A stretch of 64,000 nucleotides of DNA. Origin: Neglectibacter timonensis (GTDB taxonomy: Bacteria; Bacillota; Clostridia; Oscillospirales; Acutalibacteraceae). The translations under genes and the position numbers were made by a program. Every line of letters starts with the position of its first letter. Position 1 is the stretch's first letter. The DNA is taken from positions 253,001 to 317,000 of the forward strand of contig NZ_LT160639.1 of the NCBI RefSeq assembly GCF_900048895.1. The letters are read 5' to 3'. This document shows positions 56,338 through 58,292 of the stretch, in pieces. The notes under the pieces were generated by a model. The model searched no databases. It saw only the letters and a list, made by a program, of their open reading frames with translations, and was not told where the DNA came from.

Positions 56338-56366
56338 TCCAGAAAATTTCTCACTGCTGTTTTCGC

Positions 56367-56395
56367 TTGCATTTTAAAGTGATCACTGTTATAAT
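56367..56395 (+). promoter_or_regulatory. Strong promoter of the attenuated MFS unit
   Basis: TTGCAT (56367-56372), 17 bases, TATAAT (56390-56395). The transcript starts near 56402, more than 220 bases before the MFS gene. Confidence 0.75.
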
Positions 56396-56426
56396 GAATA
56401 AAGATTTGCTGAAAGGAGTTCGCACA

Positions 56427-56474
56427 ATGGGCTGGAAGCTGGATGTTTTGATGAAGTCCCAGGGAAACATTTGA
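56427..56474 (+). CDS. 15-residue leader peptide ahead of the MFS gene
   Basis: ATG at 56427 opens Met-Gly-Trp-Lys-Leu-Asp-Val-Leu-Met-Lys-Ser-Gln-Gly-Asn-Ile, then TGA. AAAGGAG lies 8 bases upstream, so it should be well translated. It lies between a strong promoter and an intrinsic terminator, the layout of drug-inducible leader-peptide attenuators. Its start region ATGGGC is complementary to GCCCAT in the 3' arm of that terminator. Confidence 0.65.
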   Translation: MGWKLDVLMKSQGNI

Positions 56475-56529
56475 GCCGTTCCGTCTGAAAGTGCGTTCTT
56501 TTTTAGGCAGATCTATGACAAAGTTACTT

Positions 56530-56563
56530 TGCCATGGGTTTATTTGCCCATGGCTTTTTCTTT
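56530..56563 (+). terminator. Attenuator terminator upstream of the MFS gene
   Basis: GCCATGGG, loop TTTATTTG, CCCATGGC, then TTTTTCTTTT. A perfect 8-base stem and a T run, 65 bases before the MFS start. Together with the promoter and leader peptide it forms an attenuator. Confidence 0.8.
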
Positions 56564-56628
56564 TGCCATCCCCTGCTGAAGACGCCTTTTACTTCCTTTT
56601 TTTAAACTTTCAAACGGGGTGGTCCTTT

Positions 56629-57834
56629 ATGAACTTAAAAAAGCAATTTATTTCTCTGCATCTCTATAATTTTCTGTTTTCCCTGCGTATCACCGACGCC
56701 GTGTGGGTGGTGTTCCTGCTTGACCGGGGATTTTCACTGGCACAGGTGGGAATCGCTGAGGGTGTATTCCATCTGGTGAGCTTCGTCTGCGAGATTCCCT
56801 CCGGCATGGCGGCGGATCTTCTGGGCCGCAAGCGAACCTTGATCGCCGCCGGACTCTGCGGGTCGGCATCCGCTGTTTTTATGGCTTTCAGCACCGACTT
56901 CGGCGGTATCTGCCTCTCCATGGCTTTTCAGGCGCTCATGTACAACCTCTGTTCCGGAACCCAGGAGGCCCTGACTTATGACAGTCTGAAGGCAGCAGGC
57001 CTGCAGGAACAGTATCTCAAAAGAAACGCCTGGCTGCTGGGACTTTCTCAGACTTCAGCCGCTATCAGCTGCGCTTTGGGCGGGTTGGCGGCCGCGCTGG
57101 GCTTTTTTCGGGCTTATGCTGTCTCCGCGCTGCTCAGCGCCGTGTGCGGCGTTACCGCTATGACTCTGACCGAGCCTCTCGTCACGCAAAGCCAACGGCA
57201 GCGTGCGGAGCGTCCCTTTTCCGGGCTCGGTCTCCGGCTAAAGGAGCATGTGATCCTTAGCGTCCGGTTTCTCCGGGAGCATCCGCGCACTGCCTGCAAA
57301 ATCTTCTCAGGTGCGGCCGCCGGCGTGCCCATCTATCTCACTTTCATGTATCTTCAGCAGCATCTGCTGAACAGCGGCCTGCCCAGCGTATTTCTGGGAG
57401 GAGCGCTGCTGTTGGTGCGCTTTGCCGGGACAGCAGGCGTAGCGGTTGGCGGAAAGCTGAAAGCACGGCTGTTCCCCTGCGTTATACTATGCGCTGTCTG
57501 CAGCGGCATAGGAACGGTCCTCGCCGGTTTTGGCTGGTGGATCCCAGCTCTTTTGGGCGGTATGCTGGCACAGTTCATGGACAGCATCATCGCCTTGCGG
57601 CTGGACGCCTCCCTCAATGATGATTTTCCAAGCGACCAAAGGGCCACTCTGGTCAGTGTTGACAGTATGGTGTACAGCTTGCTGATGATTGCCGCCAGCC
57701 CGCTTACCGGCGCCGTAGGCGATGCCCTTGGCGCCTCCCGGGCGCTCTGGCTCCTGGGGGGATGCCTTGTGGCCGCCGCTCCTGTTTTCGGGGCCTTCTA
57801 TCAGTTTCTTCTCCGCAAAAAACGAAACGTGTAA
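56629..57834 (+). CDS. MFS family transporter, probable drug exporter
   Basis: 401 residues with about twelve hydrophobic helices. Motif A between helices 2 and 3 reads GMAADLLGRKRTL (about residues 62-74). ATG at 56629 follows GGGGTGG by about 8 bases; the frame is open further upstream but that part lies across the attenuator hairpin. The drug-efflux reading rests on the family and on the leader-peptide attenuator in front, which is typical of resistance genes. The substrate is unknown. Confidence 0.88.
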   Translation: MNLKKQFISLHLYNFLFSLRITDAVWVVFLLDRGFSLAQVGIAEGVFHLVSFVCEIPSGMAADLLGRKRTLIAAGLCGSASAVFMAFSTDFGGICLSMAFQALMYNLCSGTQEALTYDSLKAAGLQEQYLKRNAWLLGLSQTSAAISCALGGLAAALGFFRAYAVSALLSAVCGVTAMTLTEPLVTQSQRQRAERPFSGLGLRLKEHVILSVRFLREHPRTACKIFSGAAAGVPIYLTFMYLQQHLLNSGLPSVFLGGALLLVRFAGTAGVAVGGKLKARLFPCVILCAVCSGIGTVLAGFGWWIPALLGGMLAQFMDSIIALRLDASLNDDFPSDQRATLVSVDSMVYSLLMIAASPLTGAVGDALGASRALWLLGGCLVAAAPVFGAFYQFLLRKKRNV

Positions 57835-57938
57835 TCGCTTTTTTCCAATACAGCCTGTGGGAAATTTTCCGCCCCATCTTTTTTCTTTTGACAAAACGTG
57901 CTATGATGGAGAAAATTTGCACTAAAGGGGACGTTTCT

Positions 57939-58292
57939 ATGGCGGGGCTGGATTTGGGAACCATGATGGAACTGCAGGATGAGCTTCAGGAAAAATACAA
58001 GGGAAAATGGGAACCCATTCAGCCGGACCGCTCCTATTTCAAACTTCTATGGATGATAGAAGAGATCGGCGAAGTGGTGGCGCTTCTCAAAAAGCGGGGC
58101 GAAACCGCCGTTATGGAGGATCCCGTTATACGCGCCCACTTTCTGGAAGAGATGAGCGACGTGCTGATGTACTATGTGGACACGCTGGAGTGCCTGCACG
58201 TCACGCCAGAGGAGTTCTCCGAAGCCTATCTCAAAAAACACGACAGAAACATGGGCAGGGATTTTGTCAAAGAACACAGCAGTTATTTGTAA
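57939..58292 (+). CDS. MazG-like nucleotide pyrophosphohydrolase
   Basis: 117 residues of the all-alpha NTP pyrophosphatase type. The paired acidic metal motifs are EEIGEVV (about 41-47) and EEMSDVLMYYVD (about 70-81). The start has AAAGGGG 8 bases upstream, and TGCTATGAT, an extended -10, lies 36 bases before it. It is probably a housecleaning enzyme for modified NTPs. It is followed closely by a HIT protein, another nucleotide hydrolase. Confidence 0.85.
   Translation: MAGLDLGTMMELQDELQEKYKGKWEPIQPDRSYFKLLWMIEEIGEVVALLKKRGETAVMEDPVIRAHFLEEMSDVLMYYVDTLECLHVTPEEFSEAYLKKHDRNMGRDFVKEHSSYL

Follow-up and report, generated by a model that had tools for sequence, protein, structure and literature searches.

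A candidate ribosome-mediated attenuator with a conserved leader peptide in front of an MFS exporter gene of Neglectibacter timonensis and its relatives

The region in front of an MFS exporter gene of Neglectibacter timonensis probably functions as a ribosome-mediated attenuator, whose leader peptide would represent a new family dedicated to one MFS exporter subfamily. The 15-codon open reading frame (ORF) that precedes the exporter gene in the analysed stretch of 64,000 nucleotides (hereafter the window) belongs, as judged by sequence comparison, to a widespread and apparently undescribed leader-peptide family with the pattern M-x-W-x9-G. An original prediction, made from the window alone, had placed a leader-peptide attenuator in front of this exporter, and it is supported by our analysis, as conservation across genera, constraint at the amino acid level and covarying stems all fit it. 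The best-supported trigger would be stalling of a ribosome around codons 12-13, and the inducer would be antibiotic-like. We also incline to the broader view that the M-x-W-x9-G leaders make up a new class of arrest peptide that depends on a ligand, which would occur in several Bacillota families and in Treponema, serve one exporter subfamily, and act through two output modules, i.e. a transcription terminator or the masking of a Shine-Dalgarno (SD) site.

The leader region of the window

All the features of this region lie on the forward (+) strand. The promoter, as read from the sequence, consists of TTGCAT (-35) at positions 56367-56372, a 17-nt spacer and TATAAT (-10) at 56390-56395. Whereas the -10 box is identical to the consensus, the -35 box agrees with it at only three of six positions, and for this reason a consensus scan did not list the promoter; the promoter that had been called strong is thus present, but its strength was generously worded. 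The predicted 15-codon frame with a good ribosome site is also present: the leader ORF (MGWKLDVLMKSQGNI, 56427-56474) starts with an ATG at 56427, ends with a TGA at 56472-56474 and is preceded by the SD sequence AAAGGAG at 56412-56418. Family comparison marks Trp3 (56433-56435) and Gly13 (56463-56465) as its conserved residues. As had been predicted, an intrinsic terminator and the MFS start follow. The terminator scan located the former at 56531-56563 (GCCATGGGTTTATTTGCCCATGGC with a T-rich run); its hairpin (56531-56554) has nine pairs, followed by TTTTTCTTTT, and is the best of eight terminator-like sites in a 3-kb scan (shuffles: mean 4.4, sd 2.4). The MFS gene (56629-57834, ATG at 56629) encodes 401 aa and matches Pfam MFS_1 with an E value of 1.5e-17. 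In a fold of the window only, GCCATCCCC at 56565-56573 can pair with the MFS SD region GGGGTGG at 56616-56622. Directly downstream of the MFS gene lies a near-consensus promoter, TTGACA-17-GAAAAT, at 57888-57916, followed by a gene at 57939-58292 with a weak dUTPase_2 match.

The RNA between 56400 and 56565 is folded far more stably than its shuffles (z = -5.13, 0 of 200), mainly owing to a long stem, P1, which is absent from the original prediction and in which 56402-56425 pairs with 56491-56514. The 5' arm, identified by folding and by partner-swap covariation, includes the SD sequence of the leader, so that P1 masks the leader's own ribosome site. The 3' arm, identified by family comparison and covariation, is made up of a tail element, GTGCGTTCTTTTTT, and the remainder of the arm, the tail beginning 64 nt after the leader start, which is the commonest spacing in the leader family. 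A candidate antiterminator (56513-56537) would pair CTATGACAAAG at 56513-56523 with CTTTGCCATGG at 56527-56537, with one A-C mismatch, and would thereby occupy the 5' arm of the terminator; its core is present in L001, L038, L039 and L040, the four distinct Acutalibacter leaders. The leader frame past its stop is open across the terminator in the window (56475-56580), in L039 and in L040, though not in L038, and read-through of the stop could thus in principle bring a ribosome into the terminator.

The exporter and its association with the leader

The best NCBIfam matches of the window's MFS are drug-efflux models, both under their curated cut-offs (HP1165, 40.2 bits versus 700; TetA(P), 21.3 versus 750 bits), and among solved structures one relative was found, 3wdo, titled MFS Transporter (E = 9e-6). 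A search of 148 related genomes gave 17 that match at E<=0.001. Close orthologues occur in only four other genomes, all of the window's genus (63-65% identity), and the MFS was found at E<=1e-30 in 7 of 398 genomes of the family, a patchy distribution that suits an accessory exporter. On plasmids, the MFS was found in nine Lactococcus records at ~28% identity. Part of a 41%-identical MFS also lies at 15-506 of MT837962.1, a 5.9-kb contig from human faeces recorded as 'Bacteriophage sp.'; the contig is possibly bacterial DNA.

The tie between leader and exporter was assessed with a model of the leader sequence only (R2), applied at E<=1e-4; since R2 was trained on MFS-associated leaders, very divergent leaders before other genes would escape it. 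In 378 genomes of the family taken to be Lachnospiraceae R2 gave 24 matches, all 24 before the MFS or a remnant of it: the MFS was recognized by profile in 21 cases, is in two pieces in L206, and is represented by its first codons only in L194 and L207. All five matches among 295 genomes of the window's order lie before the MFS as well, which was found by profile in L210-L212 and by tblastn in L213, the fifth being the window itself. Among 249 phylum-wide genomes the window was the only strong match (E = 5.5e-12), and at the next one (L157, E = 9.9e-5) no leader was found. Furthermore, the pattern AGTGCGCCCWTTTT gave 28 matches in 391 Clostridia genomes versus six for the reversed control; four of the 28 (L140-L143) were judged to be leaders, each before the same MFS subfamily. 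The same leader before other genes, for which the original prediction had suggested looking, was therefore not found in the 391, 378, 295 and 249 genomes searched, all confirmed leaders preceding the MFS or its remnant. Three leader-pattern matches on viral contigs were all judged to be due to chance, and a search of plasmids with the leader peptide of one relative gave two matches, with E values of 3 and 7.

The leader persists in L194 and L207 though the MFS was lost after its first codons, and in L206/L217 the MFS is in two matching pieces; leaders left before deleted or broken genes are what one would expect if the exporter is accessory and frequently lost. L194 had also been considered as a leader before a membrane-fusion-type protein, which was rejected because the two are separated by the first codons of the MFS.

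The same attenuator might respond to a non-antibiotic inducer, i.e. a free metabolite, an amino acid or a peptide which binds in the ribosome tunnel and which the exporter naturally transports. Tryptophan, in the case of TnaC, is a free metabolite that binds in the ribosome tunnel. The occurrence of the family in commensals and in Treponema, and an MFS that matches no resistance model above cut-off, would agree with such an inducer. So would the leader motif, in which the R/K-x-R/K pattern of macrolide arrest, as described for tlrB, is lacking (PMC6851288). The M-R-L-R (R/K-x-R/K) arrest motif of Mef/Msr/Erm(D,K) leaders does not occur in the window's leader, and the family consensus is different from it. 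On the other hand, the patchy accessory distribution and the distant drug-efflux similarity fit resistance better, and a single conserved Trp codon is ill-suited to the sensing of amino-acid starvation; we regard a non-antibiotic inducer as conceivable but unlikely.

Constraint on the peptide, the tail and stem P1

The leader family was compared in 86 loci, i.e. the best 80 of 306 MFS relatives together with L001 and L006-L010, by means of a finder that required a start codon, TGG in codons 2-5 and, at a distance of 50-82 nt, a motif resembling the tail; the Trp was thus imposed, but codon 13 and its Gly were not. A related leader was found in 79 of these 86 loci, and in 72 of the 79 a Gly follows ten codons after the Trp, the residue preceding this W+10 position being Lys in 62 and Asn in 12 of the 79. 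Gly is missing at W+10 in the other seven, two of which, L047 and L054, have K-G one codon nearer. The tail begins 64 nt after the leader start in 59 leaders, 65 nt in 12, 62 nt in four, and 61 and 73 nt in two each. Conservation of leader, spacing and tail is far beyond chance. As to the seven loci in which the finder missed a leader, L095 and L115 do have one on inspection, L050 has a degenerate leader without Trp, the sequence of L102 is truncated, and no leader is visible on inspection before the MFS of L042, L052 and L077.

Several divergent forms were seen. In L050 (Faecalibacterium prausnitzii) P1-like arms and the tail are kept ~130-220 nt before the MFS, and the Trp codon is CGG. L009 (1279-1377) and L010 carry the divergent leader MLFTWYIPMLSSWKNAFNAAADGITAPFFSL, with two Trp, K-N replacing K-G and the tail retained. 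The Treponema loci (L097, L100, L107, L112 and L117) have Trp at codon 2, and Gly only in L107 and L117; their leaders start with ATG-TGG, have no visible ribosome site, lie close behind a promoter-like -10 box, and have a tail of the variant form GTGGG[C/T]C. In Treponema the leader RNA may thus be near-leaderless.

For the codon-level comparison, 64 leaders were reduced to a non-redundant set of 47 with <85% identity and 64-nt spacing, leaving out L050 (spurious), L047 and L054 (61-nt spacing) and near-duplicates. Codon 13 encodes Gly in all 47, with all four GGN codons in use, and 46 of them have Leu, Val, Ile or Met at codon 8, where the entropy of the first and third bases is ~1.95 bits; this variety of codons, near-maximal in entropy at codon 8, argues for selection at the peptide level. 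Codon 12 is Lys in 37 and Asn in eight of the 47, and in total, amino-acid-level constraint on this short ORF was seen at codons 8, 10, 12 and 13. Moreover, each of the 47 leaders has a start codon and no stop ahead of codon 14.

The family tail, GTGCGCCC[A/T]TTTT, lies at a nearly fixed distance from the leader start. It comes after an in-frame stop in 26 of the 47 non-redundant leaders (at codon 16 in 11 and at codon 19 in 15) and falls outside the leader frame where the spacing is 65 nt (12 loci), which argues that it is conserved as RNA and not as peptide. Its substitutions are often C-to-T, altering the encoded residue and often keeping the pairing. On these grounds a 'SAPFF' peptide arrest motif was rejected, and so was UGA recoding at codon 16, as the stops there are TGA in five and TAA in six of the 11 leaders; at codon 19 they are TAA in five and TAG in ten. 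Since the window's own stop is at codon 16, its tail would be untranslated unless read-through occurs.

The covariation of P1 was evaluated by a partner-swap test between species in 17 loci, comprising the window's relatives, Faecalibacterium, Gemmiger and other Oscillospiraceae. The native arms pair at -24.66 kcal/mol versus -20.18 kcal/mol when swapped (0 of 5000 permutations), and the outer half of the stem, which is free of the SD and tail consensus, at -10.98 versus -7.62 kcal/mol (0 of 5000); two control pairings were not significant (4665 and 657 of 5000). A mixed alignment of 10 sequences gave no common pair with RNAalifold.

A covarying P1, together with a tail that is kept behind stops and out of frame and that changes its encoded residues, could also be taken to mean that a structured RNA, riboswitch-like or protein-bound, is the regulator and that the frame is incidental; but the pattern at codons 8, 10, 12 and 13, the W-x9-G spacing and the intact frames of all the non-redundant leaders make this improbable. 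We give still less credence to the idea that the terminator stops stray upstream transcription, the leader being a relic by which the exporter is not regulated. The lone leaders of L194 and L207 and the leaderless MFS of L042 and L052 would agree with it, but such cases amount to 2 of 29 leader matches and at least 2 of 86 MFS loci, and conservation across genera with covarying stems is unlike the behaviour of a relic.

Output modules and known attenuators

Sequence comparison suggests that the leader peptide is coupled to two output modules, i.e. a terminator with P1 in the window's relatives, and pairing of the tail with an anti-SD element in those of the Lachnospiraceae type. Of 17 Oscillospirales-type loci, 13 have a terminator in the corresponding position (all except L006, L007, L054 and L056); a scan of the other 32 loci flagged two, L069 and L140, whose sites we read as hairpins of the MFS SD site. 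In equilibrium folding of five Acutalibacter leaders the probability of the terminator never fell below 0.97 in any of five ribosome states, and the terminator was more stable than the candidate antiterminator in all four distinct leaders (e.g. -16.6 versus -6.4 in L001 and -14.7 versus -13.7 in L040). When the RNA was exposed stepwise, the terminator being read at the point where exposure had reached 4 nt short of the end of its stem, the candidate antiterminator gained only with the start site and codon 13 both blocked. This double block clearly delayed the terminator in two of the four leaders (early terminator from 0.32 to 0.02 in L001 and from 0.32 to 0.00 in L038), slightly in L040 (0.30 to 0.24) and not in L039 (0.37 to 0.37), and a block at codon 13 alone brought no change and did not open P1 in L001, L038 and L040. 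It is thus possible that the antiterminator acts kinetically, given a second ribosome at the start site. The original prediction had pointed to ATGGGC of the leader start and GCCCAT of the terminator 3' arm as an alternative fold, and these six letters are indeed complementary in the window, but they have next to no chance of being the switch, because GCCC does not occur in the terminators of L038, L039, L040 and the almost identical L041, and the leaders of the first three start with GTGGGC, GTGGGC and ATGGGA, respectively.

In the ribosome-mediated attenuation that we favour, a ribosome would start on the leader during transcription and, in the absence of inducer, complete the 15 codons and leave; the SD region of the leader would then pair with the tail to form P1, shutting off further leader translation, and the terminator would end the transcript. 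In the presence of inducer, the nascent peptide M-x-W-x9-G, usually with K-G or N-G at codons 12-13, would stall the ribosome near these codons. The stalled ribosome, together with another that follows it and sits over the start site, would hold P1 open, the CTATGACAAAG/CTTTGCCATGG hairpin would capture the terminator 5' arm, and the polymerase would read through into the MFS gene. The inducing compound would thus probably be sensed by the ribosomes, and the exporter switched on.

In the Lachnospiraceae-type relatives, the same peptide would drive a translational switch. In the 35 loci that do not belong to the terminator set, an element downstream of the tail pairs with it (native -16.69, swapped -13.67, 0 of 5000; -9.15, sd 0.35, with the downstream element shuffled), although a control segment was also positive to a smaller extent (-7.41 versus -6.44, 3 of 5000), so that base composition explains part of this signal. 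Examples are GGGGATAGTGCG with CGCACTGTCTCC in L113 and GGGGTTACTG with CAGTAAACTCC in L096. The downstream element ATCTCC pairs also with the MFS SD sequence GGAGAT in many of the Lachnospiraceae-type loci, and its pairing with both partners suggests a switch like that of ermC. The geometry of this type is simpler than the window's, in that a ribosome standing at codon 13 would lie over the C-rich stretch directly before the tail, and would thereby free the tail. In 14 terminator-set loci the swap test gave no support for the tail pairing with the downstream element (1578 of 5000).

The window's system may work like the Mef(E)L, tlrB and bmrB attenuators, with which it has no leader sequence in common. 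In mef(E)/mel, transcription attenuation controls a macrolide MFS pump, and a stalled ribosome is proposed to prevent the terminator; a short leader, Mef(E)L (MTASMRLR), an intrinsic terminator and an MFS exporter downstream are shared with the window, whereas the window's peptide is unrelated and has no R-L-R, its MFS is of another subfamily, and the predicted anti-attenuator of mef(E)/mel overlaps the poly-U tract; unlike P1, no stem masking the leader's own ribosome site is noted in the part of that report available (PMC4335068). The tlrB (yxjB) leader of Bacillus combines a terminator with a hairpin that masks the gene's SD site and also represses further leader translation, as we propose for P1, but its peptide is the 9-aa MIIQFIRYR with an RYR arrest motif, it controls an rRNA methyltransferase, and its terminator hairpin is blocked directly by the stalled ribosome (PMC6851288). 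Leader translation controls read-through into an exporter in bmrB-bmrCD of Bacillus subtilis as well, but the 53-aa leader contains the terminator and has no W-x9-G, and the exporter is of the ABC type (PMC4191407). The Lachnospiraceae-type tail resembles ermC in pairing with an anti-SD element and so freeing the SD site of the gene; peptide and gene are different, and the window itself has no supported pairing of this kind (PMC4191407).

Rfam gave no match in the window and only tRNAs in seven related loci, and at E<=1 the region 56340-56660 gave one sub-threshold Qrr match (22.4 bits versus a cut-off of 50). That the peptide was not one recognized at the time of the original prediction still holds: it matches no leader known to us, and the leaders of three relatives matched no Pfam or NCBIfam family, with one chance Pfam match at E = 0.12. 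A literature search of openly available main texts found no description of an M-x-W-x9-G leader. We consider the novelty of the leader family provisional.

The invariant distance from Trp to Gly makes the stall site directly testable. If the proposed attenuation is true, abundant gut commensals including Faecalibacterium, Gemmiger, Acutalibacter and Lachnospiraceae would possess a new conserved nascent-peptide sensor, which would point to an unrecognised inducible exporter and would offer a natural comparison of one peptide sensor with two expression modules.
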